Below are positions 34,688 to 63,899 of a stretch of DNA of 64,000 nucleotides, piece after piece. Below the pieces are notes generated by a model, which was not told the origin of the DNA, made no database searches, and saw only the letters and a list, made by a program, of their open reading frames with translations. Position numbers and translations under genes: made by a program. Source of the stretch: Sipunculus nudus (taxonomy: Eukaryota; Annelida; Sipuncula; Golfingiida; Sipunculidae); the NCBI GenBank assembly GCA_026874595.1, contig CM049313.1, positions 46,384,159-46,448,158 of the forward strand, read 5' to 3'. Each line of letters opens with the position of its first letter. The stretch's first letter is position 1.

Positions 34688-37600
34688 GTAATTTATATGG
34701 AAGTATCCAGATTGATGTTCAAACAGAACCAGTAAAACATACTGGGTGCTGTACATTTAGCTGCTGAAATGCTGCAGTCAGGATAGCTTCCCTAAGATTA
34801 CCTAACTAGCATATAAGCTACCTTTCATTAGTGGCATGATCTAAAGCAAGGTAACCAGATGGACAACTGCCTCCCAGTGCCTGTGAAGTAACCCTAACAG
34901 ACAGTTACCCTATCATCCCCCCTCCCCCCCCCCCCCCCCCCCCAGTGCACTAATGTTGCCCAATCAGACTGCCACTTCCCAGTGCCCATGACTTATTCTT
35001 ACCAGACTGTGACCTCCGTTTGCCCATGATAGTTACCTTCCTGTCCCCCTAATGTAACCAAACAAGACGCTTACCTCCTTGTACCCATGATTTAACCCCA
35101 CCAAAAAGTCATGTCCCAGTGCCCATGGTGTACCCCAACTGAAGTTACCTCAAGGCTCAAGCTCCCAGTGCCCTTGATGTAACCCAATCGATAGTTACAT
35201 GCTCATGATATCATCCCACCAAACATTTACCTCCCAGTGCCCAATATATAACCCTACCAGACAGTTACCTCCCAGTGCCCATGATATAACCCTACCAGAC
35301 AGTTGCCTCCCAGTGCCAATGATTTAACCCCACCAGACAATACCCTTAATACCCATGATATAACCCTACCAGACAGTTACCTCTCAGCGCCCATGATATA
35401 ACCCTATCAGATAGTTACCTCCCAGTGCCAATGATTTAACCCTTCCAGACAATATCCTTAATACCCATGATTCAACCCTACCAGACAGTTACCTCCCAGC
35501 GCCCATGATATAACCCTACCAGACAGTAACCTCCCAGTGCCAATGATGTAACACCACAAGACAATACCCTTAGTACCCATGATGTAACCCTACCAGACAG
35601 TTACCTCCCAGTACCCATGATATATCCCTACCACACAGTTACCTCTAGTGCCAATGATGTAACACCACAAGGCAATACCCTTAGTACCCATGATATAACC
35701 CTACCAGACAGTAACCTCCCAGTGCCAATGATGTAACACCACAAGACAATACCCTTAGTACCCATGATGTAACCCTACCAGACGGTTACCTCCCAGTACC
35801 CATGATATATCCCTACCAAACAGTTACCTCTAGTGCCAATGATGTAACACCACAAGACAATACCCTTAGTACCCATGATGTAACCCTACCAGACGGTTAC
35901 AACCCAGTACCCATGATATAACCCTACTAGACGGTTACCTCCGAGTGCCCATGATATAACCCTACTAGACAGTTACCTCTAGTGCCAATGATGTAATCCA
36001 ACCAGAAAGTCACCTCCCAGTGCCCATCATGTAACCCTACCAGACAGCTACCTCCCAGTGCCAATGATTTAACCCCACCAGACAATACCCTTAATACCCA
36101 TGATTTAACCTTACCAGACAGTTACCTCTCAGCGCCCATGATATAACCCTATCAGATAGTTACCTCCCAGTGCCAATGATATAACCCTACTAGACAGTTA
36201 CCTCTAGTGCCAATGATGTAATCCAACCAGAAAGTCACCTCCCAGTGCCCATCATGCTACCCTACCAGACAGTTACCTCCCAGTGCCAATGATTTAACCC
36301 CACCAGACAATACCCTTAATACCCATGATTTAACCCTACCAGACAGTTACCTCTCAGCGCCCATGATATAACCCTACCAGACAGTTACCTCCCAGTGCCA
36401 ATGATGTAACACCACAAGACAATACCCTTAGTACCCATGATGTTACCCTACCAGACAGTTACCTCCCAGTACCCATGATATATCCCCACCAAACAGTTAC
36501 CTCTAGTGCCAATGATGTAACACCACAAGACAATACCCTTAGTACCCATGATGTAACCCTACCAGACAGTTACCTCCCAGTGCCCATGATATAACCCTAC
36601 TAGACAGTTACCTCTAGTGCCAATGATGTAATCCAACCAGAAAGTCACCTCCCAGTGCCAATCATGTAACCCTACCAGACAGTTACCTCCCAGTGCCAAT
36701 GATTTAACCCCACCAGACAATACCCTTAATACCCATGATTTAACCCTACCAGACAGTTACCTCTCAGCGCCCATGATATAATCCTATCAGATAGTTACCT
36801 CCCAGTGCCAATGATTTAATAATTCCAGACAATACCCTTAATACCCAAGATTTAACCCTACCAGACAGTTACCTCCCAGCACCCATGATATAACCCTACC
36901 AGACAGTAACCTCCCAGTGTCAATGATGTAACACCACAAGACAATACCCTTAGTACCCATGATGTAACCCTACCAGACAGTTACCTCCCAGCACCCATGA
37001 TATAACCCTACCAGACAGTAACCTCCCAGTGCCAATGATGTAACACCACAAGACAATACCCTTAGTACCCATGATGTAACCCTACCAGACAGTTACCTCC
37101 CAGTGCCCATGATATAACCCTACTAGACAGTTACCTCTAGTGCCAATGATGTAATCCAACCAGAAAGTCACCTCCCAGTGCCAATCATGTAACCCTACCA
37201 GACAGTTACCTCCCAGTGCCAATGATTTAACCCCACCAGACAATACCCTTAATACCCATGATTTAACCCTACCAGACAGTTACCTCTCAGCGCCCATGAT
37301 ATAACCCTATCAGATAGTTACCTCCCAGTGCCAATGATTTAATACTTCCAGACAATACCCTTAATACCCAAGATTTAACCCTACCAGACAGTTACCTCCC
37401 AGCACCCATGATATAACCCTACCAGACAGTAACCTCCCAGTGCCAATGATGTAACACCACAAGACAATACCCTTAGTACCCATGATGTAACCCTACCAGA
37501 CAGTTACCTCCCAGTGCCCATGATATAACCCTACTAGACAGTTACCTCTAGTGCCAATGATGTAATCCAACCAGAAAGTCACCTCCCAGTGCCCATCATG

Positions 37601-40600
37601 TAACCCTACCAGACAGTTACCTCCCAGTGCCAATGATTTAACCCCACCAGACAATACCCTTAATACCCATGATTTAACCCTACTAGACAGTTACCTCTAG
37701 TGCCAATGATGTAATCCAACCAGAAAGTCACCTCCCAGTGCCCATCATGCTACCCTACCAGACAGTTACCTCCCAGTGCCAATGATTTAACCCCACCAGA
37801 CAATACCCTTAATACCCATGATTTAACCCTACCAGACAGTTACCTTTCAGCGCCCATGATATAACCCTATCAGATAGTTACCTTCCAGTGCCAATGATTT
37901 AACCCTTCCAGACAATACCCTTAATACCCATGATTTAACCCTACCAGACAGTTACCTCCCAGCGCCCATGATATAACCCTACCAGACAGTAACCTCCCAG
38001 CGCCAATGATGTAACACCACAAGACAATACCCTTAGTACTCATGACAGTTACCTCCCTGTACCCATGATATAACCCTACTAGACAGTTACCTCCCAGTGC
38101 CAATGATTTAACCCCACAAGACAATACCCTTAGTACCCATGATGTAACCCTACAAGAGGGTTACCTCCCAGTACCCATGATATAACCCTACTAGACAGTT
38201 ACCTCCGAGTGCCAATGATTTAACCCCACAAGACAATACCCTTAGTACCCATGATATAACCCTACTAGACAGTTACCTCCCAGTGCCAATGATTAAACCC
38301 CACAAGACAATACCCTTAGTACCGATGATGTAACCCTACCAGACAGTTACCTCCCAGTACCCATGATATAACCCTACTAGACAGTTACCTCTAGTGCCAA
38401 TGATGTAATCCAACCAGAAAGTCACCTCCCAGTGCCCATCATGTAACCCTACCAGACAGCTACCTCCCAGTGCCCATGATGAAAACCTACCAGACCGCTA
38501 CCTCCCAGTGCCCATGATGTAACCCTACCAGACAGCTACCTCCCAGTGCCCGTGATGAAACCCTACCAGACAGTTACCTCCAAGTGTCCATGGTGAAACC
38601 CCACGATACAGTTACCTCCCAGTTCCCCTGATGTAACCCCACCAGACAGTTACCTCCCAGTGTCCATGGTCTAACCCCACCAAACAGTTGCCTCCCAGTG
38701 CCCATGATACAATCCTACCAGACAGTTACCTCTCAGTCCACCTGATGTAACTGTACCAGACAGTTACCTTCCAGCCCCCAAGATATAACCCCATCCGACG
38801 GTTACCTCCAAGTTCCGCTCATGTAACCCACCAGACAGTTGCCTTCCAGTGTCCATTGTCTCACCCAAGCAAACAGTTGCCTCCCAGTGCCCATGATGTA
38901 ACCCAACTAGACAATTACCTCTCAATCCCCCTGATGTAACTGTACCAGACAGTTACCTTCAAGCCCCCAAAATGTTACCCCATCAGACAGTTACCTCCCA
39001 GTGCCCTTTATGTAACTGTACCAGACTGTTACCTCCTAGTGCCCATGATATTTTTCCTCCAGACAGTTACCCCCCAGTGCCAGTGATATCACCTTACCAG
39101 AAGTGTGTATTGCCTATGAACTGTTATTGATCAGACTCTCTGGACAAGATATTTTTTTCAGTAATATCAACAATTCCCCTCTTTCTTTAATTAATAAATG
39201 GCTTTTAATAAAAAAATATTTTAAGTCTAGTTGCCAGCATTTTAAATGTGGACATCTTTTATGTGAATCAGTCTAAGTTACTGTTGATTTATTCTTTCAG
39301 TTTATTGGTACAGACAATGAGCTGAGCATTGAAGCACCAGTACCTGCTATAGAATATGCACCTACTCAAGTGGGATTTCATTACATGGTTGGTCGACCAA
39401 CCTCACTTGCAGGTAATTTTGTTTCAATCCTTAGTTTCACATAAGTAATTTCACATAGGAACTATTTCTTAATATCGTTTTGTACTAAAAAGCCAGTTGG
39501 GCATTATGTGGAGACATCCCAGTCCATTGAAACCTGTCACAGCAAGAAACAGCACATTTTCAAGATTTAAATGAGGGCTTGGTTTAATTGACTCTGAAAT
39601 AATGTTTGGTCATGCTGACAAATCAGATTTAGTGATGATTGGTCAGTTAATTAATTTAATTGGATTTTTATGTAATAAATCACAAATGATTCTGTATGCT
39701 TATCATGACAAATTACACAAATAATCTGGAAAAAATCTCTTTGACACTGTCAAAAAATAGCAACTAATGTTAAAATGGACAACCTGACCTTTTAGCATAA
39801 CTGCAGAGAGATGTATTGTAACTAGTATTCACTAGTTAGCCACTTGTCAACATTTATTAGACACAAACTATAGCAACATCTGTATGCAGGTGTGATTAAA
39901 GTGTACAAGATTATCAAAATTGTGACTTATTCAGTCTTCACAGACACACTCTAAATTGTGAAATTTGAAAATATGCTGGTGTTGTAAGAATGATTATAGA
40001 TGCCTCTGTTAATTGTTAAAAAAATCTATTGCAAATGATGAAAATCAAGTTCATCTGCATAATGGAGTATGGCACACTTTAACTCTAGAATGGTAATGTA
40101 ATCCGTACTGGAATTTGAATCTGGTACACTCTTGCTTTTGACTGTTTGTAATCTTCCATTTTAGGATACTGGATAGGTGATCCTTGTGAATTCACACAGA
40201 TGGGAGTGTATTGTAATGATTACGACTACAAATGGGCGCTGCAGAATTACGGCAAGAAACATGCAGATGAGAGTGTTGTTGGATGTGGTCTGGTATCATC
40301 TTTCAGCAGTTGTCTAGCTCAGGCCTACAATCAGGGTAAAATCATTTTCATTTACCAGTTTATATAACGGAACATATGACTTTTACATATTTAATCAGCT
40401 GTATCTGTTCAGAGAACATAATACTTTGTAAGACAAAATTGTAGAATTTAAACACAAAATTTGCACTGAATACCTTAAAATTTGAATCATATCAATATAC
40501 ATCTATTTTTCTGTAACATAGACAAACATTGAACTGCAGTGGTCATGTTTTAGAAAAGTATAATTGTGCATATGATCATTTGTTGTCTCATATTTTGTAA

Positions 40601-43600: not shown

Positions 43601-46600
43601 AATGTAGTTCACGAAAGTCCTACTGGGTCATTACCTAATTACGTTTTTCCTTCCTCACTGGTACAGCGGAATAAATTCGAACCTGACCGACGTCGTTTAA
43701 GCAAACGTGATACATTTTGTGGGAAAATTTGGTGACTGTGACATGGTTGTGGACAGGCCAGGAAAATGTAATTTTCGATAGTTAAAGATTAACACAGAAT
43801 AATAAATGAGGTAGCCTAGTTAAGTAGAGCATCATGGAAGCCTTGGTTTCGTGCGCTGTCACTTGTCTACCTTAAGCCACTTATAAACGTGGACGCTGAA
43901 ATGCAATGGGTGTTTGGGGTGATCTCCCTCAAATTATGCAGAAGACTGACATTTCTTTGAAATAAATTTATCTTTTTTAAAGAGGAAGTTTTCAATGCCC
44001 TGTAATGCACATTCTCTTGACATTAATTCTTAGTGGCTGCCATTTCCTGGATAATAATTTATTACCCAAATTTGGGCCCTAAAATTGACCCTTTGATGTC
44101 TCTTATGATATTAATTTGAATTGTTGCATAATACTCATTCTTTGATATGTTTAATTAATTCCATTTTGGTCTGCTCCAAACCTTTCTATATTACTTTTCT
44201 GTTTTCACTTGTAGCATCATAAAAAAAATATACCACTGACCATTTTAAGAATCAAAAATTTCAATCATCAGTGTTAAAGTGATCATTATGCTAACAAAGT
44301 GATCTTCAGTAGCTGGCAGCTCCAACTTAAGATGCTGAAAAATAATTTGAACCAAAATTTGAGGCTCAACATTGGGGGTCGTCTTATACACGCATAAATA
44401 CGGTATATTATAATTTTGCATTCAATATGCATCTGTAGTAATTTTGAGCGAACCTGTGAGCTAATGCGACCGCTGTCTGTATGTTAACCCATACTATTTA
44501 AAAATGACTTGAGCTAGCATCATGAAATTTAATGCAAAAAATTAGCCACCTGAAAAACTCTGCTTTTTCTTAGATTTTATAGAGAAAAAGGTAAAAATCC
44601 TTAAAAAATCTTCTCCGACGAAACGGTAAAGCCAAATTGTTCAATATTTTAAAGAAATAATCTTTTATACCATCTTTTTCAAGTTTTTTTTTTAATGGTT
44701 CAAGTTCGGTGAATTTTGTCTTCTGTCAAAAAAGCATACTAAAATGACAATCTCAGAAACGGCCGGAGCTATCATCACCAAATGTTATGCCAGTGTTGGT
44801 CACAGAGTCATATATGAAATTCAGGTATTGGTGGTACCTGCATTGACCTTTTGTTGTACGGGGGTCATTGGTCATCTGTACATTAACCCATAATTTCTCA
44901 GGAATGGCAGGAGCTGCCATCCCCAGATTTTATGCAATAATCTGTCACATATCAAATGTGGGATTCAGCTTATTTTTATGCCCCCGCCACAAAGTGGCCG
45001 GGGCATATAGTTTTACCCATGTCCGTCATTCCGTCCTTCTGTCCTTCCGTCATTCCGAAATCAAACAGTTGTACGGACTTTTTTTCGCAATGCCTGCAGA
45101 TATTGGCCTGATTTTTGGTGTGTGGGCAGATATAGACCAGTTACAGATTGAGTTCGCGTTTCGTCCTGGTTGACCTACTTTTGACCGTTTTACGGCTCCA
45201 AAACTTAGAAAATTTCATGAAAAATAGAAATTTCATGACAAATACACATGTACGGACTTTTTTTCGCAATGCCTGCAGATATTGGCCTGATTTTTGGTGT
45301 GTAGGCAGATAATGACCAGTTACAGTTTGAGTTCGTGTTTTGTCCTAGTTGATCTACTTTTGACTGTTTTACGGCTCCTAAACTTAGAAAATTTCATGAA
45401 AAATAGAAATTTTCATGCAAAATGTACACATGTACGGACTTTTTTTCGCAATGCCAGCAGAAATTGGCCTGTTTTTTGGTGTGTGGGCAGATATAGACCA
45501 GTTACAGATCGAGTTCGCGTTTCTCCTGGTTGACCTACTTTTGACGTTTTACGGCTCCTGAACATAGAAAATTTCATGAAAAATATGAAATTTCATGACA
45601 AATACACATGTACAGACTTTTTTTCGCAATGCCTGCAGATATTGGCCTGATTTTTGGTGTGTAGGCAGATAATGACCAGTTACAGTTTGAGTTCGTGTTT
45701 CGTCCTAGTTGACCCACTTTTGACTGTTTTATGGCTCCTAAACTTAGAAAATTTCATGAAAAATAGAAATTTCATGACAAATACACATGTACGGACTTTT
45801 TTTCGCAATGCCAGCAGATATTGGCCTGATTTTTGGTGTGTTGGCAGATATAGACCAGTTACAGATCTAGTTCGCGTTTCATCCCGGTTGACTTACTTTT
45901 GACCGTTTTACGGCTCCTGAACATAGAAAATTTCATGAAAAATATGAAATTTCATGACAAATACACATGTACAGACTTTTTTTCGCAATGCCTGCAGATA
46001 TTGGCCTGATTTTTGGTGTGTGGGCAGATATTGACCAGTTACAGATCAAGTTCGTATTTCGTCCCAGTTGACCTACTTTTTATTGTTTTACGGCTCCTGA
46101 ACATAGAAAATTTCATGTTAAATATAAATTTTCATGACAAATACACTTGTACAGACTTTTCTTCGCAGTACCTGCAGATATTGGCCTGATTTTTGGTGTG
46201 TGGGCAGATAATGACCAGTTACAGATTGAGTTCACGTTTTGTCCCAGTTGACCTACTTTTGACCATTTGACGGTGCTCTTACATTGAAAATTTCATAAAA
46301 AAGTGCACATGTATGGACTTTTTTTCGCAGTGCCTGCAGAAATTGGCCTGATTTTTGGTGTGTAGGCAGATAATGACCAGTTACAGATCGAGTACTTGTT
46401 TTGTCCCAGTTGACCTACTTTTGACCATTTGACTGCTCCTGAACATAGAAAGTTTCATGAAAAATAGAAATTTTCATAACAAATGCATATGTACTGACTT
46501 TTTTCCTCAATGCCTGCAGATACCACCCTGATTTTTTAAGTGTGGGCAGATAATGACAGTTACAGATCGAGTTCGCGTTTCGTCCTGGTTGACCTACTTT

Positions 46601-49600
46601 TGATTGTTTTACGGCTCCTAAACATAAAAAATTTCATGAAAGACAGAAATTTTTATGGAAAATGCACATGGATGGACTTTTTTTCACAATGCCTGCATAT
46701 ACTGGCATGATTTTTGGTGTGTTGCTTGATAATGACCCGTTACAGATCGAGTTTGCATTTTGCCCTTGTTGACCTACTTTTGACCATATGATACCTCCTG
46801 AACTTAAAAAATTTTTCAAAATTTTACAAATGTTTCTAATTTGCCCCAGGCGGGGGCATTCGTGTCGTTCCAACACATCTAGTTTTGCTATCTGCGTTTA
46901 CTTAGATTTTATAGGGAAAAAGCTGAAAAACCTTTAAAAGTCTTCTTCTTGTAAACGGACCAGCCAAATTGTTCAATATTTTGCAGAAATGATCCCAGAG
47001 GCAAGCCCTCTCAAGTTTGTTCAAATGTTTGCATTTGATGAATTTTGGTGGAGTTACATGAATTTGAACAGTCATTTGGCCAAGTAAGCATACTGACATA
47101 GTAATCTCAGAAATGACAGAAGCTAGCATTACCAGGTATTGTGCAAATGTTGGTCACATGACTCATATTTGAAGTTGCAGATTTTGTGGTGCCACCTACA
47201 TTGACTTTTTTTATGGGCAAAAACCTCATAATTTGAGCCTCTTTCAGCTTGAAATGTTCATGATGAAACTGTCAAGTTGAATTGTTAAATTTTTCAAAAG
47301 AATTATCCTAGGACATGGTTCTTTCAATCATATTAGAAAAGCTTATGTTGGTCTTATGGCCATTATTATGTCTAACTCAAACTCAGGACTGCAATACTGT
47401 TCTTCTAAAAAATTATTGTTTCAATTATAACTTCTGTAACTTGGCACAAAAATTATTCTTAGGTGGCCTTTGTTCAAGTTTACTTGAATGATTTTTTGGC
47501 AGAATTATTGGACCTTTAACAGTGAAAGAACTGCATCTTTTATTATTCTAGGTATTTTGATAAAAAATTTATGAATATGTCAGCTTGAAAAAAAAAAAGC
47601 ATTTGGCCAAAGTCTTTCAGTATGTGTAAACAGATTCACCAACACTCCAAGATTGTGTCTGCCTCTTTAAATAGGTTGAAAAACTGCCAATTGTTTCAGA
47701 TTTGGCAACAGATCAAGAGTTCATTCAGTGCAGCCAGATTTAGGTCAAGAGTTCAGTCAGTGCAGCCAAGCACAAGGCATGTGATCACCTCATGGGTGAC
47801 ATGTGATCACCTCGTGGGCGACATATGTCATGGGCACCATGTGATCATCTATGGGTGTCATGCCCCTCAGGGCTGCATATGGAACCAATCTGTGAGCTTA
47901 TGCAATGGTGTGGCTACTATTTCAGACTTGCAAAAGGCTAGAGGTCAGTCTCGATCTATTTATAGCTTTTGCAGACTGCCAACTGTATCAGATTAGGCAA
48001 CAGGTCAAGAATTCACTCAGTGCAGCCAGGTATGGGTCAGGAGCTCACTCAGTGCAGTAGCTGCTTTCTATTTTTCGTGTAAGCAGACTGCCCACTGCAT
48101 CAGATTTGTCACCAAAGTTCAGCCTTGATCTAATTATAGCTTTGGCAGACTGCCAACTGTGTCAGATTATGCAACAGGTCAAGAGTTAACTCAGTCTAGC
48201 CAGATGCAGGTCATAAGTTCACTCAGTGCAGTAGCCTGAGCAAGCAAATTTGTGACAGTTCACTCAGGCAACTGCCTTTCTCACCTAAGCCTGGTCAGCC
48301 CCATGCATCATACTCAAGGTAATTTTTATGTATTGGCCTGATATTTTGACCTGTCTATGTGTCTTTGATGGCTTTCTCGTTCACAAGACAGGTGTCGCCA
48401 CCTACAATGACTTTTGCACAGTGTATGTGCCTGCTTATTTCTACAGAGGAATTTGATATATCAGCCTGAAATTTGGCATATATATACATATCGCATATAG
48501 CTTTGTCGTATACAAGAATGGTGGTGCCACTTACAATAATTTTGCAGTGTGTGTGTCCCTGCTTATTTTCAGGAGGGGTTTGATATATCAGTCTGAAATT
48601 GGGCATATGTATATATCTCTGATAGCTTTGTTGTATACAAGACTGGTGGTGCCAGCTACAATAATTTTTGTGTTGTGTGCACCCATGCCAGAATTTCAGC
48701 AGTGATGTTTGTGTAATTGTTTCTTATTCAAAATGTTAAGTGTATACTTGCATTGTTCATATACATGAGAAGTAATGGTCCAGCATTGAACCATTATACC
48801 TGGTGTATTTCCTAATGCACAGGTTCGCATTAGGCCTGTAGGCTTTGTTTATAAAAAACCTCATAATTCTGTCCTTATAGAATTCAGCTGAGCATCGAGA
48901 CCCATGGCTCCCTAATTATAAAAGGTCCAAGGGATTACCTTTAGTTTATAAAGGTCAAACAGCTGATTGGGCCCCTTTAATAGTGTAATACAGTGAAACT
49001 TGTGTAATAAGACCACCCATTGGACTGGCTAAAGATGGTCTGTGTAATACACAGGTCAGTTAAAACTTATTTGGAATGTGTTCTGTGCACTTAAGGTTGA
49101 TTAGAATAGACAGGTGGTCATTTGATGGGTGAACCTACAGGGTAAAAGTGCAGTTCAGGTGACCTGCTGCAAACTGGCTTTACTCAAACTGATTTTTTCC
49201 TTTGAATCAAGCTTGATGTCTTATTTTTATGTGGATTTTATAAACAAAATGTAAATTTTGATGAAATCTTCAAGTAAGCTCCATGTTAGGGCAAGAAAAT
49301 ATGGACAGACCATCAGTAAGGGTCCAGTTGTAGGCAGGTCATTTGTACTGCACTTTTACCACATTCAGGTAGATTCCACTGCTGTTTAAAAGATTTAGAT
49401 TCCACTGCTGTTTAAAAGATGTATAAAACAGCAGCAGTGCACCTGTATTCTCTGTGGTTGTTTATTTGCAGGGTTCAGTATGCACCATGATGTAACATAC
49501 CCCATTACTACACAGACTGTGGTAACAGATGGCCGGCAGTTCAGGTTCTTTGTGTACCAGCTGAATACAATGCAGCTTTGGAAGGAGAATGAAATCAACC

Positions 49601-58500: not shown

Positions 58501-61500
58501 TCCAAGCAGCACAGAGTTCACGTTCCACATTCCTTCTTTAAACTCCGTCTTCTGCTTCCACAGCTCAGTTTTCTTCTCATCCTCAGCAGATTTGATGGCA
58601 CTGTTTATAACAAGGTAAAATAGTAACTTTTAATATATCAGTCCCACCTAACCATAAATTTACCTGTCTGGCCTTTTGTGCCTGTCCATTCTTGTTTTCT
58701 CAATTCCCTTGGAAGCATGCAACTAAAGTTTCCAAACTGATGGTTATTCTTTCTGCACTGGCCTGCCATCCAGGACCAGTACACATTCATTCTAGGTGAA
58801 GAGGGCATACCCTTGTGGTTAAGACCTTGGCTTGGGGTCTTAGCACACGAGTTGTCAGAATGGGATATGAATTCACAATGTCATAGGCACAAATCAAGAG
58901 ACCTTACAATTACATAACTATTCTCCAGAGTGATAAGATCTATACTAGTTGTCATTCTTTCACATTTCTTTAATTATTTGGATAAATTAAATAAAATTCC
59001 TCTTTAAGCCATGTGATGGTTAAAAATATTTCTATCTGTTTTCTTGTTCTAAAACCAATGAGTTGAAATTTCAAACTATTTTGCTTTAAAGCAAATTTAA
59101 ATTTCTATACAGGTCATTTTTTCCCTCCAAAACTGAATGTTCATGCATTTTGTTTTTCTGTATGGCTGCATGAAAAAAGAAATTTTTTTATCTATATCAA
59201 GCTGTATGTATTAAAATAAGCAACCTTCAATCAAACTCAAATTTTTCTTTGCAGCCAATTTCTTCATGGGAGTTTCCATTTTTTAAGGTTACCCAGACAA
59301 ATTCTGCTTACCCGGGTCTCCGCTCCTCTATCCGACCAGACAGACCAGTGTGTCGTGACATTGTGTTATCACCGGTGGTCGTCTCGTCCTCATCTGGCCC
59401 TTCCTCATCAGAGTCGTAGAAGTGGAAGATGACGCCCATGTAGTCTGTCTCCTGTTGATAACAGTCAATCATGATTATACAATGAAACATCAAAATTACG
59501 GCCACCAACAAGACCTTGATAAAGTGGTCACATTTTCAAGGTGGTCTTCTAGGCTAGGTCTGATATAATGAGTAAAAGAAATCTGGGACTGAAAAAGTGG
59601 GTGTTATTCTGAGGTGGTCACTAAACTGAGATAGTCATTAGGTGAGGTTTTACTGTTAGAAAGCATAAAATGTCACAATGATCATGGTATAATACAATGA
59701 CAGGTGCAACCTGTGATCAGCATCAAATCAACCAGTAACAGGAATAAGGAAAATCAGTTCAATACAGATAAAAGAGATTAAATGAAAACATGATTTAGCA
59801 CAAGATTTATTAATCATGTACATTTTATAATACATATGATTCATTAAACAGAATCATAACTACAAAATCATAACAGCTGAAAATTTAATTATTGGGAAAT
59901 GGTAATCCTACTTACTCATTTTAAGATCTATATGAAGATCATGGAGAAGATCATTAATACAAAATATTCCAATGCTATGCTTTATAACTACAAAGGTATA
60001 CGGGTATGCATAATTAATATGGTTTTTGCCATAATGAAGTCAAATTTCTGGATTAATTAAAGACTTGATTGATGAAGCTGACTGTATAACTCAGGATGTT
60101 CATTTTCTAATTTGAGTTTAACATGCAATACCGGTAAACTAAAAATAAAAGTCATTTACTGATAAAATACTACACAGTCTACACGGTGCCAGTGACCACT
60201 TACAATTGTGGTTAAAAAAATTTGTGAATTATAGAATTGATGGATTTCTGGCATACTCTGTGTACATATTAATGGACTGTAGGTAATTCATGTTGAGAAA
60301 AGTTTTGATTACGCCTCTGTGATGGAAGCTTGAGCATGTTTATCTTTGAGTTGTCTGTAAACATTGTACATGGGTCAATGTGACAAACAGAACAAGTGAC
60401 CCAGGGGGTCATGAAGCTCAGCTAAATAGGAAGACATTCACAAAAGGAATTTTAACATCTGAATGCCAAATTTGTAAGTGGTATCCTAATTTAACTGCAG
60501 CATAGCCCAGAGGATATGGGTAACAGAGACATTTCTAGTTTCCAAGAGGATTTTTCATGGACCTCCCTGGATGTCAAATTAGAAGATTCTAGGTGCTATG
60601 GTTACAATTTGGGCCCTTTCAAATAGAAAACCAGATTTTTGAAGGTTTCAAAAATAGAGAAAAAATGTGTAAAAATTAGAAAAAAATCCAGGTGGGGCCA
60701 CCATTCTGCAGGAACTGATGAAACACTCCATGATGAATATGCATGCAATGATTCATGGTGATCAATGCATTAGTTATTCAGATGCTGGAGCTTTTGTAAG
60801 AATTTTTAATTATTCTGGGGGGTACTTCTGAGCCCCATAGCTCGGAGGATATGGGTAACAGAGACCTTAATTTAGGTTTCCAAGGAGATTTTTTATGGAC
60901 CTCCCTGGATGTCAAGTAATAAGATTCCAGTATCAGCAGTTGTGATTTGTGCCTGGTTATGGATGGACAGACAGATGGATGTTGGAGAAAGAGTGATCCC
61001 TAAAGTTTAGATGATTTTTAGTCAACTGAGCTAAAAATCATGTTAGCTATTGTGGTTGGTTGCATATGTGTGGATGTTTAAAAGTCACTTGGTGCAAAAC
61101 GCCCTTTGCAAAACTCTAGTTGATCTGATTTGCCAACAGAAGTCCTTGTTTACTGTTTGGAATATTTGGCATGTGCTGCCCATGTTATAAGCAAGTGGAT
61201 ATAAACAAAATGGACAGCCTGTGTGCTGTGGGACGTGTGTATTTAGGTCTATTTATCTTCAGTTAATAGACTTCAAATATCGGAACAGGCCCCTTAAATC
61301 ATATAAAATTTCAGTCAAATACTTTTACCTGTGTAGAGAGGTACTTCATGTAATATTTTTACCTGTGTAGGCTGCTACTTCATGTAATATTTTTACCTGT
61401 GTAGACAGGTCCTTCATGTAATATTTTTACCTGTATAGACAGGTACTTCATGTAATATTTTTACCTGCGCAGACAGGTACTTCATGTAATATTTTTACCT

Positions 61501-63899
61501 GTGTAGACAGGTCTTTCATGTAATATTTTTACCTGTATAGACAGGTCCTTAATGTAATATTTTTACCTGTGTAGGCAGGTACTTCATGTAACATTTTTAC
61601 CTGTGTAGGCTGGTACTCCATGCAGTATTTTTACCTGTGTAGACAGGTACTTCATGTTATATTTCTACCTGTGTAGACAGGTACTTCATGTTATATTTTT
61701 ACCTGTGTAGACAGGTACTTCATATTATATTTTTACCTGTGTAGACAGGTCCTTCATGTAACATATTTACCTATGTCATCAGGTACTTCATGTAATATAT
61801 TTACCTGTGTAGACAGGTACTTCATGTAATCATCACTGTTGATTGTGTTCTTCCACCAGCTGAGCCAGGATGCATAAGACCTTGAGGCGACCTCTGCCAT
61901 CATTGGTTGACCTGCCTGCTCCATTCCTCCCATGTAATCAGCATTTGGTGGTGCCTTATAATCAATTAAATCAGGTTTTGTAGATGACTATAAACTAATT
62001 ACTGATAAAACAAATGTTTCTAATCAAAGTGTTAACACATAGGCCTACATATTTTTATGGATATTAAAAAAAAATATGTTAAATACAAAATGAAGAGAAT
62101 TAATGTATTAAATACAGTAAAATGCTATATGGCCATAAACCTGGGAATGTGTCTCATTCCTTGAAAAGAAATCATGCATGATTTACTAATAAGACTTTGA
62201 TGACAGCAGTAAAAGAACACAACAATCTCAATCAGCAAAGAGCCTCTCATATGGTCTGTATTTATGCCCTAGGGTGACATAACAAGAAAATTCTAGAACT
62301 CTACAGAGTTTCATATGGTGTCCACCTCTGGGAGTCATGCTGACAATTTCAGAGTATTACTTCTTGACGGTAAATCAGCTAATTCTAAAAATACTGAAGG
62401 AGTCTTCATATTTTCAAAAGAGATTATTCATACATAATCAAAAGTATGTGCATGCATTTTCAGTTTTTTTTATATCAATTACACTAATGGTGATCTTAAA
62501 ATGTAGTGAATATTAAAGCAACTGAATTTTTAAAGAAAAGAATCAGAGCAAACATAAAGGTGTAACGTGACCAATTTATGTTGATAATTTGTAAAAATTT
62601 GTGTCGCACCTGAGGTTCAAACTGTGGACGTCCCTTTGTATCCTTTGGTGGGCTGACAGGACTGCAAAGGAATGTCACAGATTTAATTAATAAACAAATA
62701 CCAAGAACTATCTAAAAAAAATATTTGGATGTCTATTTACACTGAAAATAGCATGGTCACAATAAGAATCTTATTTTAAAATATCTGCAAACAAGTACTG
62801 TATAAACATTGATATTACTTCCCTTGTAAAAAATTCAATCCTGTTTGATTTAAAAACAGATTGTCATTTTTTAGAGAGATGAGACTGCTGAATTCCTTAT
62901 ACAAACACTTTATTATTTAATAATTAATTGCTTTTTATGGCCTGTTGTTTCATGGATTGAAGGTGCCTCCTACTGAAATTGGATGAAGAAAACCATATGA
63001 TAAAGGTGACTCAGATAACTAGTCTGCTGAAAGCCTGGGTTCATGTGCATATGGCTGGGAATGATCTATAAATCATAAGCTGGTGAATTCAGTTATTCAA
63101 ATGTGGTTTCTGAATACCTATTATAGAACAAGAGCACTGCAAACATACATAATACGCCCATTGTGTATTTGGTGACCTCTGACCTTATTAAATATGCGTT
63201 AATTTTGATGAGAAGGTAATTCAGGTGAAAAACTCTATTGGTAAATATGCGAGATTCATAAAAATCCATTGAATTTTTGGTAAGTCACTAAGGTGCCTCT
63301 AAATTGGGTGACCTTTGATCTCATTAAATATGCACGGATTTTGCTGGATATCGAACTTAGGAGAGATATTTTACTATTTAACATTTCTGATGAGGTTAAT
63401 AAAAATCCTTTATATTCTTCATAAGTTATTATGACAACACCAAATAGCTCATGACCTAAATTTATAATCATGGATGTTGCCCATAATCGAAACCAGGTGA
63501 GATAATCTGTTGGTTAGTGGTTATGGTGAGTTTTGTGAAAATCCTTCAAAGCCCCGGTAAGTTATCGCAGAGACACTACAAGTTAACGGGCGGACAGTGG
63601 GTATACCATAATACTTCTGTCATATGAGGGGCGTATAATAAATTACATTTATAGTTATAAAATTTCCTCAGAAGGTTTCCACATAGTTCAGTTTTAAATC
63701 ATAATGACGCAATGGTGGTGCCAATGAAGTACACTCACGTTTTTGCCCATCCTCGGTGGTCCTGCTGCCCCCAGGGTGGGTCATCAGACTTATTTAGTTT
63801 CTTATTAATAATACGATCTGACTTCTTCCGTGATAGAGTGGATGATGCCAGGATGCCAGTCAAATTAACTGCATCTGCTGTTGGTTCAACAATGTCATC
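52433..63899 (-). CDS. CCDC87: Coiled-coil domain-containing protein 87 (CCDC87), C-terminal twelve exons (5' end outside window)
   Basis: Exons (minus strand, 5' to 3'): 63739-63899, 62610-62661, 61805-61954, 59312-59451, 58476-58600, 57555-57693, 57010-57094, 56484-56624, 55372-55486, 54509-54570, 53764-53844, 52433-52597. All join in phase with GT-AG introns, giving about 471 codons. Diagnostic matches to human CCDC87: DIVEPTADAVN (PLVEPAADKDW), WWKNTINSDDYMKYLSTQET (SWKTTLSVDDYFKYLTNHET), RLDMAIKYSS (QVDMTIKYSS), REIILAKLEHFERYASDPNR (REALLARLEWFEGQASNPNR), RPYRDKMQWDRTEMLYWLQE (RRYLDKMKHDKVEMLYWLQQ). Family knowledge: CCDC87 is expressed mainly in testis and ciliated tissue, and mouse work links it to sperm function. 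Biochemical role is unknown. The human gene is intronless or nearly so; the many introns here are probably ancestral, which is inference. Confidence 0.92.
52598..53763. other. CCDC87 intron, nothing recognised
   Basis: AT-rich with a C-run at 53582-53596 next to an A-run. No exon or clear repeat. Confidence 0.55.
53764..53844 (-). CDS. CCDC87: CCDC87 exon k (27 codons)
   Basis: Encodes RIDQLEKDIMKQLDYMENNF then SDVVTYE, a coiled-coil segment matching LHRKLNLMESSLVSLLEEIE. Acceptor ATTTTCAG|AGAATT and donor TATGAG|GTATGT, phase 0. Confidence 0.9.
53845..54508. other. CCDC87 intron, nothing recognised
   Basis: AT-rich. Short open frames on both strands have no homology or splice support. Confidence 0.55.
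54509..54570 (-). CDS. CCDC87: CCDC87 exon j (62 bp)
   Basis: Encodes YRGSSVARLEEAKTRSTYYS. Acceptor TTTTGACCAG|GTTACC and donor TACAGT|GTAAGA. The sequence just upstream of the acceptor is tandemly repeated (54571-54664). Confidence 0.85.
54571..54664. repeat. Tandem repeat of about 31 bp at CCDC87 exon j acceptor
   Basis: Three units of TCAAAACACAAGGTGTAAAC then ACA. On the minus strand the acceptor context TGTGTTTTGACCAG is repeated as TGTGTTTTGACA in each unit. Confidence 0.85.
54661..54812 (+). mobile_element. Tigger-type MITE, copy 1
   Basis: Begins CAGTCAAACCTCACCTGATG and ends GGGTTTCACTG, giving short CAGTSAAACC inverted termini. The body matches the reverse complement of 59505-59655 (TCAGTTTAGTGACCACCTCA, CAGTCCCA-TTCTTTT, TATCAGACCT). 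About 152 bp, no coding capacity. Confidence 0.7.
54977..55318 (+). other. Unassigned 113-codon open frame in CCDC87 intron
   Basis: The frame starts MVAFFFLNNYVNTTKQKNIG on the strand opposite to CCDC87. It has AT-driven composition, no recognisable domain and no splice partner. Most likely chance. Confidence 0.1.
55372..55486 (-). CDS. CCDC87: CCDC87 exon i
   Basis: Encodes AISSWEEVTSMIQKREIILA then KLEHFERYASDPNRFFEK, matching VNAWERALKPIQLREALLARLEWFEGQ of the human protein in the coiled-coil domain. Acceptor TTTTTGCAG|GCCATA and donor AAAAAG|GTATGT, phase 1 out. Confidence 0.93.
55925..56400 (+). mobile_element. Dispersed element M1, copy 2
   Basis: Begins GTTAAAGGTGCCCATTCTCC and contains GGCTTCCTCTGTGTATATAT, GTTTGTAAACACAGCAATG, CTATGGCTTATCTGATTTGC and ATGCCCTTGTTGAATTTG. 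It ends near CACTTTAAGGGTAC. This is the most complete copy and serves as reference for the interrupted copy at 60230. Confidence 0.7.
56484..56624 (-). CDS. CCDC87: CCDC87 exon h (47 codons)
   Basis: Encodes VKISQEQNLATQDRLEKVWA then MLKMPDGKRLDMAIKYSSDQ, matching LEQLWSVLEVPDKDQVDMTIKYSS of human CCDC87. Acceptor ATTTTCCAG|GTGAAA and donor GAACAA|GTAGGT, phase 0 both sides. Confidence 0.92.
57010..57094 (-). CDS. CCDC87: CCDC87 exon g
   Basis: Encodes LSDNTGSLSVNRTNTAQSDS then NTIGEVTE, a polar linker. Acceptor TTTTAG|GTTAAG and donor ACAGAG|GTAGGT. Frame continuity supports it; homology alone would not. Confidence 0.72.
57555..57693 (-). CDS. CCDC87: CCDC87 exon f
   Basis: Encodes VEPTVKLVVPDESLKVRTPR then KTTVISRRSQRS and MDDLDRDSKNRTR, a basic linker without a human counterpart I can align. 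Acceptor TGAACAG|AAGTGG and donor ACAAG|GTTCGT keep the frame with neighbours. Confidence 0.75.
57694..58475. other. CCDC87 intron, nothing recognised
   Basis: AT-rich, no repeat or exon identified. Confidence 0.6.
58476..58600 (-). CDS. CCDC87: CCDC87 exon e
   Basis: Encodes AIKSAEDEKKTELWKQKTEF and ends LLGGLGKNPTP. Acceptor TAAACAG|TGCC and donor CCCCAG|GTAATA, phase 1 out. Charged, probably helical. The EKKTELWKQKTEFKEGMWN stretch corresponds loosely to the FVPGEWDWNTVLEHRLGAG region. Confidence 0.82.
58795..58920 (+). repeat. Degenerate tRNA-derived SINE head
   Basis: CTTGTGGTTAAGACCTTGGC then GGGTCTTAGCACACGAGTTG and GGGATATGAATTC resemble an A-box/B-box tRNA head in which GGTTCGAATCC has decayed. 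Spacing and order fit, sequence match is weak. Confidence 0.35.
59312..59451 (-). CDS. CCDC87: CCDC87 exon d
   Basis: Encodes ETDYMGVIFHFYDSDEEGPD then DETTTGDNTM and RIEERRPG. The acidic stretch follows the conserved HETDFLHVIFQMHEEE equivalent. Acceptor TCAACAG|GAGACA and donor CCCGG|GTAAGC, phase 2 out. Confidence 0.92.
59505..59655 (-). mobile_element. Tigger-type MITE, copy 2
   Basis: The reverse complement begins CAGTAAAACCTCACCTAATG and follows the 54661-54812 copy through GTTTAGTGACCACCTCAGAA. It sits directly upstream (minus strand) of CCDC87 exon d. The distal terminal repeat is lost. Confidence 0.65.
59656..60229. other. CCDC87 intron, nothing recognised
   Basis: AT-rich, no exon or clear repeat. 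Confidence 0.6.
60230..61300 (+). mobile_element. Dispersed element M1, copy 3, split by an F2 insertion
   Basis: The left part (60240-60390) carries ATTTCTGGCATACTCTGTGT and TGTCTGTAAACATTG. The right part (61037-61290) carries GTTGGTTGCATATGTG, GATCTGATTTGCCAACAG and the right edge GGAACAGGCCCCTTAAATC. Removing 60393-61036 rejoins them in the order of copy 2. Confidence 0.7.
60393..61036 (-). mobile_element. Dispersed repeat family F2, copy 2, two monomers, nested in M1
   Basis: Plus-strand left edge AACAAGTGACCCAGGGGGTC (minus 3' end: hairpin TGACCCCCTGGGTCA then CTTG|TT). Right edge TTTAGTCAACTGAGCTAAAAA. Two units of about 333 bp share ATATGGGTAACAGAGAC and TTATGGACCTCCCTGGATGT. Confidence 0.75.
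61325..61804. repeat. Fourteen tandem copies (about 34 bp) of the CCDC87 exon c splice donor
   Basis: Unit ACCTGTGTAGACAGGTACTT then CATGTAATATTTTT. On the minus strand each unit reads CATGAAGTACCTGTCTACAC then AG|GTAAAAATA, that is, the last 20 or so exon bases plus a donor. The true junction (61804/61805) is the fifteenth copy. The exonic part varies at a few positions, while AG|GT appears intact in every copy I read. Confidence 0.92.
61805..61954 (-). CDS. CCDC87: CCDC87 exon c (50 codons)
   Basis: Encodes APPNADYMGGMEQAGQPMMA and ends WWKNTINSDDYMKYLSTQ, one of the most conserved CCDC87 segments. Acceptor TTATAAG|GCACCA and donor TCTACACAG|GTAAAT, phase 0 both sides. The last 20 or so bases and the donor are copied fourteen times in the following intron. 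Confidence 0.92.
61955..62609. other. CCDC87 intron, nothing recognised
   Basis: AT-rich, ordinary intron with no repeat seen. Confidence 0.6.
62610..62661 (-). CDS. CCDC87: CCDC87 exon b (17 codons)
   Basis: Encodes PVSPPKDTKGRPQFEPQ between acceptor CTTTGCAG|TCCTG and donor CCTCAG|GTGCGA. Supported by phase continuity with both neighbours; low-complexity linker. Confidence 0.78.
62662..63126. other. CCDC87 intron, nothing recognised
   Basis: AT-rich sequence before F1 copy 2. No exon or repeat. Confidence 0.6.
63129..63641 (-). mobile_element. Dispersed repeat family F1, copy 2 (HINE-like)
   Basis: Matches 5164-5680 along its length: AACAAGAGCACTGCAAACAT, GGTGACCTCTGACCTTATTA, GTTGCCCATAATCGAAACCA, CTTCAAAGCCCCGGTAAGTT, ending GAGGGGCGTATAATAA. 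On the minus strand it ends GTGCTCTTG|TT. GGGCGTAT and ATACGCCC lie near opposite ends. Confidence 0.7.
63739..63899 (-). CDS. CCDC87: CCDC87 internal exon a
   Basis: Acceptor ATCTTTCAG|GATGAC, phase 0; donor AAAAAC|GTGAGT, phase 2. Encodes DDIVEPTADAVNLTGILASS and then TLSRKKSDRIINKKL, matching the VEPAADKDWSTFLSSAFLR region of the human protein. Confidence 0.88.

Follow-up and report, generated by a model that had tools for sequence, protein, structure and literature searches.

The window, that is, the whole 64,000-nucleotide stretch of DNA analysed, carries on its minus strand a 50-codon exon (exon c, 61805..61954) that is in phase 0 at both ends. The intron that follows begins with 14 copies of a 34-bp unit (61329..61804), which bring a donor every 34 bases, the end of exon c being the first of the 15. 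Exon c ends in ...DYMKYLSTQ and is followed by GTAAAT, so that its own junction reads CAG/GTAAAT. TRF, run on the window, reports a tandem array of 34-bp period at 61318..61830 (minus strand; 15.1 copies, 88% matches, score 788), which includes the last 26 bases of exon c. The next exon, exon d (ETDYMGVIFHFYDSDEEG..., 59312..59451, minus strand), lies downstream, and two candidate upstream exons on the same strand, b (PVSPPKDTKGRPQFEPQ, 62610..62661) and a (DDIVEPTADAVN...GWAK, 63739..63899), were placed by reading only. The gene had been proposed to be CCDC87; no such model or structure was among its Pfam and Protein Data Bank matches, which comprised a sub-threshold Pfam match to MAP65_ASE1 (E 0.00033, 20 bits, cut-off 26.9) and, in the Protein Data Bank, weak unrelated matches only. 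Two other repeats lie elsewhere in the window: about 100 copies of a 38-bp unit at 35200-39101, with GC skew to -0.375, and an array of 180/359-bp period at 45070-46814 with about 10 copies of the shorter unit.

We compared the copies with the end of the exon. The minus strand has 15 AGGTA sites spaced exactly 34 bases apart, namely the own donor of exon c and one in each of the 14 copies. Aligned with exon c, the copies (61804..61329) agree at 21-25 of its final 26 bases and at 22-26 of its final 34; when the exon end was shuffled 2000 times and compared with one copy, the agreement averaged 9.2 and never exceeded 17. The likeness is not due to chance. The original prediction of 14 tandem 34-bp junction copies, with the exon's own end as a fifteenth, is thus borne out, while the interval it gave, 61325-61954, holds the array but takes in exon c too. 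In a search of the assembly exon c occurs once, and the array finds its own locus and one weaker place on C10. That the copy number was inflated, or the copies misjoined, during assembly is extremely improbable, as the individual copies differ among themselves, the array is flanked by an ordinary exon and intron, and other genes show the same pattern (see below).

Donor strength was scored at nine positions against the consensus CAG/GTAAGT (CAGGTAAGT). The own donor matches at 8 of the 9, 13 of the 14 copies at 7, and one copy at 6. Twelve of the 14 copies have the same U1 duplex energy as the own donor, -8.3 kcal/mol, the remaining two being at -6.7 and -8.0. The expected series of near-equal donors in a junction-derived array is therefore present, as judged by the 34-base register and the U1 energies. 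The stronger claim that the copies are as good as the real donor holds by U1 energy for those 12, but by consensus every copy is one position or more lower.

The products of the donors differ sharply. Splicing from the own donor of exon c to exon d (59451..59312) leaves the frame open. Use of donor 1 of the array adds 34 bases and shifts the frame, as had been foreseen for a one-unit slip, and a stop is then met in exon d. Every one of donors 2-14 leads to the same TGA (61754..61756, minus strand; codon 67), which lies within the second copy, in frame with exon c. A three-unit shift of 102 bases had been thought able to preserve the reading frame; it does keep the phase, but the frame is not open, with this TGA at 61756-61754 in its path. 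The own donor is the only one that yields the full message. If it is the donor used, its position adjoining the exon is a likely reason; U1 energy gives it no preference.

A second 34-bp junction array, of 26 copies, lies at C10:37883681-37884653 (L003). It begins at an exon end reading ...IAVIHHLSTQ/GTAAGT, and a peptide joined by hand from this exon and the next matches Methyltransf_11 over residues 2-72 (E 1.5e-12), with the junction, at residue 50, inside this range. Of the AGGTA donors in this array, the first three past the exon's own (+36, +72 and +108) are open and in frame. The C10 and window arrays have an 18-base core, ACCTGTCTACACAGGTAA, in common, because both exons end in LSTQ codons.

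We surveyed the assembly for further arrays of this kind. Triplets of CAGGTAA at 21-51-base steps gave 3528 + 4406 matches against 447 + 357 for the reversed word; these are counts of matches rather than arrays, and a large array contributes many. We read the five loci at the head of the list, which all lie on C1. The array of L012 begins where a first coding exon (MATTRLQIYVDKEDPGS...) ends, an exon that we take to be securin-like and that had no Pfam or PDB match; a possible exon end stands at the array start of L016, and no exon was found at the arrays of L013, L014 and L015. Triplets of the full donor word CAGGTAAGT gave 265 matches; roughly 100 of them were listed, from C1 to C9:11.65 Mb, and these make up 19 arrays. 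We read the donor-side flank of all 19, unblinded, with the start of L029 taken in L045. An exon-like end (an open frame behind an AG) stands at the start of 13 of them: L018, L019, L020, L021, L022, L026, L027, L028, L029/L045, L030, L031, L032 and L035. The own donor of L030 is CAG/GTTTTA. No exon end was seen in the donor-side flanks of L023, L024, L025, L033 and L034, and L017 was ambiguous.

Homology is firm for two of the 13 exon-end arrays. The L021 exon matches ABCC2/MRP over all 56 residues (E 1.3e-9; Pfam ABC_membrane, 3.1e-6), and that of L026 matches XPD 556-586 up to its last residue (E 3.6e-7), with no Pfam match. It is weak for three more: L028 (DNA-PKcs at E 0.67, though all six of its matches are to DNA-PKcs), L020 (PH, 0.016) and L030 (Xan_ur_permease, 0.016, the PDB giving only an unrelated match at 1.2). 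The other eight were called from frame and acceptor alone. L018, L019, L022, L027, L031 and L032 had no homology match, and the exon ends of L035 and L045 weak unrelated ones only, that of L045 being presumably fibronectin III-like. The C6 array to which L045 and L029 belong is about 10 kb long with a 47-bp unit, running from position 4554 of L045 onward to L029, with triplet matches up to C6:27282774; its extent was pieced together from TRF results in the two loci and the triplet matches. Three further arrays were met among single occurrences of CAGGTAAGT: that of L042 begins where a TPR exon ends (E 1.3e-6, residues 1-44 of 72, short of the junction), and L043 and L044 showed no exon end. 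Separately, three neighbouring single CAGGTAAGT sites (L095, L096 and L097; C1:1777089-1793962) stand behind exon-like ends that resemble one another (...NDYIPVSYEQRY) and may belong to a gene that was duplicated locally.

Junction arrays also occur at the other end of introns. Triplets of the acceptor-side word TTTTACAGG gave 213 matches, against 59 for its reversed control, the latter counted as matches, not arrays. Among the matches listed, which reach into C8, nine loci were read, and two of these begin an exon at the last array copy: L064 (C4:41711000-41713000) and L065 (C7:77350800-77352500). The L065 exon is GidA/MTO1-like, matching GIDA over 43 of 43 residues (E 2e-19) and MnmG structures at 4.3e-15. 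Six of the nine had no exon start, and for L067 the reading covered the 5' end.

Two observations concern the assembly as a whole. It contains five mir-2 matches above cut-off, four of them within 2.2 kb of C11; the mir-2 family is found in protostomes. Small contigs (C60-C89 and C123), probably from bacteria sequenced along with the animal, carry ten long unbroken COX1 frames, nine of 577-578 aa and one of 489 aa.

We asked if the donor word forms arrays more readily than comparable words. The controls were a word of identical dinucleotides (CAAGTAGGT), the reversed word (TGAATGGAC) and a reversed shuffled word (TGGATGAAC). In C1 to C9:11.65 Mb, CAGGTAAGT forms 19 arrays, TGAATGGAC 4 and CAAGTAGGT 2. 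The contrast in raw genome-wide matches is smaller: 265 for CAGGTAAGT against 133 for TGAATGGAC, 24 (in 6 arrays) for CAAGTAGGT and 108 for TGGATGAAC, the last counted as matches, not arrays. Single occurrences genome-wide number 15,332 for CAGGTAAGT, which owes part of its abundance to being a donor, and 12,946, 6,252 and 13,292 for TGAATGGAC, CAAGTAGGT and TGGATGAAC, respectively. Per single occurrence, the donor word forms 4.0 times as many arrays as TGAATGGAC and 3.9 times as many as CAAGTAGGT (one-sided p 0.004 and 0.03). The six donor-word arrays without a junction call (L017 included) occur at the control rate (ratio 1.25, p 0.46).

The listed control arrays numbered 6 for CAAGTAGGT and 11 for TGAATGGAC, whose matches were listed as far as C12. 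We retrieved 16 of these arrays (C10:3600528 was left out); the C12 piece consists of array throughout, and the other 15 show one flank or both, with L036, L037 and C10:3592226 offering one flank only. By reading, none of these 15 has an exon junction within its unit. In three of the control arrays (L037, L041 and L055), whose units contain no junction, an exon-like end nonetheless lies about 100 bases away or less; L055 may be a decayed junction unit, given the very short distance to its exon-like end.

The chance of at least 13 of 19 arrays lying at exon ends depends on the share of single sites that are real donors, being 0.0003, 0.004 or 0.28 for shares of 0.28, 0.36 or 0.59. An automatic exon score, which misses exon c and the ABCC exon, was compared with a null of 514 sites. 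The 95% point of that null was exceeded by 6 of the 39 single sites scored and by 7 of the 19 array starts (p 0.07), and its 90% point by 11 and 8 of them, respectively; the single sites were the first 40 on C1 outside the three arrays there, less one. With this p of 0.07, and a probability of 0.28 if 0.59 of the singles are real donors, splice junctions are not established as a hot spot for array formation.

Arrays of this sort had been thought not to belong to a described class. There is reportedly a human precedent, by its title an interferon-induced transcript in which a minisatellite provides multiple splice donor sites (Turri, Cuin and Porter, 1995), and a 2002 paper by Canestro et al. 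is said to have founded the study of amphioxus mirages. Going by its title, the human case (IFI6/6-16 type) is likewise a minisatellite with several donors; there, however, the donors are provided to a transcript, whereas the window array is known from sequence alone, and we claim no kinship between the genes. The portions of two papers available to us (PMC3087553, PMC3902484) describe mirages as minisatellite-like tandem repeats across exon-intron boundaries, at either intron end and with many AG/GT copies, and name as amphioxus cases Adh3, the globins BflGb6 and BflGb9, troponin C and PGBD5. Together with the human title, these refute the view that the class is undescribed. In both mirages and the window array the tandem unit spans the exon-intron junction, and it is short, at 34 bp here compared with 10-72 bp in Adh3 and about 150-160 bp in the globins (PMC3087553, in part). 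The same excerpt places amphioxus mirages at both boundaries, like the donor- and acceptor-side arrays described above, and gives two haplotypes of the BflGb6 mirage, of 6 and 3 units, where the window array has 14 copies in one assembly. The hosts differ, being amphioxus there and, on the basis of mir-2, probably a protostome here. The literature we searched, with subscription journals thinly covered, yielded no genome-wide survey of junction arrays and no protostome report. What is new here is that they recur at various genes within one genome.

Could the copies work as a cluster of functional donors, competing for U1, with out-of-frame or stop products tuning the good message and copy number setting expression? 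The equal U1 energy of 12 of the 14 copies and the frameshift or stop that follows from every donor 1-14 would suit such a role, as would the title of the human precedent and the fold of the array RNA, which none of 100 shuffles equalled (z -4.0). Around the own donor, however, folding is ordinary, with 115 of 200 shuffles doing as well (z 0.20). The periods of 17 junction arrays show no frame preference, falling 5, 6 and 6 modulo 3. Nor are donor columns consistently conserved above the rest of the unit: the values are 0.969 against 0.917 in the C8 array, and 0.918 against 0.935 in the C10 array. The GT is intact in every copy of the C8 array, and its slightly better kept donor columns would also fit donor use, but C8 and C10 disagree in sign, and selection for spare donors was rejected. 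We compare only these two, as 11 of the 14 arrays in the conservation analysis were found through the exact donor word and are therefore biased in favour of intact donors, and in L028, L031 and L035 the analysis was anchored on another AGGT of the unit. Regular splicing is, moreover, reportedly undisturbed by amphioxus mirages (PMC3087553, PMC3902484, as far as the available text goes). The array copies look unselected, and a functional donor cluster is unlikely.

The window array is most likely a silent array of the mirage kind. In the origin that we consider probable, a short tandem duplication of a unit spanning the exon c/intron junction would have been multiplied by slippage or unequal exchange to 14 intronic copies; exon c would be spliced at its own donor, and the copies would be removed together with the intron, which makes the array most likely nearly silent. 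Were splicing to slip to a later donor, the message would be truncated and probably degraded. We infer the duplication route, the precedence of the exon at this locus and the use of the first donor.

The alternative direction is that the repeat came first and an exon end was captured from it by exonisation. It gains from the fact that no homologue of exon c was found, but at other genes homology reaches into the repeat or across the junction (XPD, ABCC and the C10 methyltransferase), and coding sequence therefore preceded the repeats there. Similarly, the repeated or adjoining stretch at the acceptor of the GidA-like exon is ancient coding sequence, and the units differ between genes. An array-first origin is thus very unlikely. 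As searches of Pfam and the Protein Data Bank gave no homologue of exon c, it is by analogy with these genes that exon c would have preceded its array.

We also considered hairpin seeding as a general cause. The window unit contains a 7-bp inverted repeat across the donor (TACCTGT-CTAC-ACAGGTA). The exact 18-mer with both flanking bases, however, is confined to the window array, with four occurrences against none for its reversed control; inspection by eye shows no comparable palindrome in the units of XPD and ABCC, and the own-donor fold is ordinary, as noted above. Hairpin seeding was therefore rejected.

These arrays bear on a model of Rogers, discussed in the part of PMC3087553 available, in which introns are gained when AG/GT sites are duplicated in tandem; PMC2812944 (in part) also deals with tandem repeats at exon-intron boundaries. 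The window array resembles the model in its tandem AG/GT copies at the border of coding sequence and intron, and differs in that the intron was already there and a new one is not demonstrated. A broader proposal, which we regard as possible but doubtful, is that splice junctions are preferred birthplaces of minisatellites, that hundreds of exons carry tandem copies of their junctions as a supply of AG/GT for alternative exon ends and new introns, and that some arrays, such as that on C10, already make protein length variants.

The recurrence of junction arrays is the part worth following. Many such arrays in one genome offer natural experiments on the choice among near-identical donors, and the same arrays bear on whether tandem duplication of AG/GT junctions feeds intron gain. 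If the placement of the animal among protostomes is true, mirages are not peculiar to cephalochordates.
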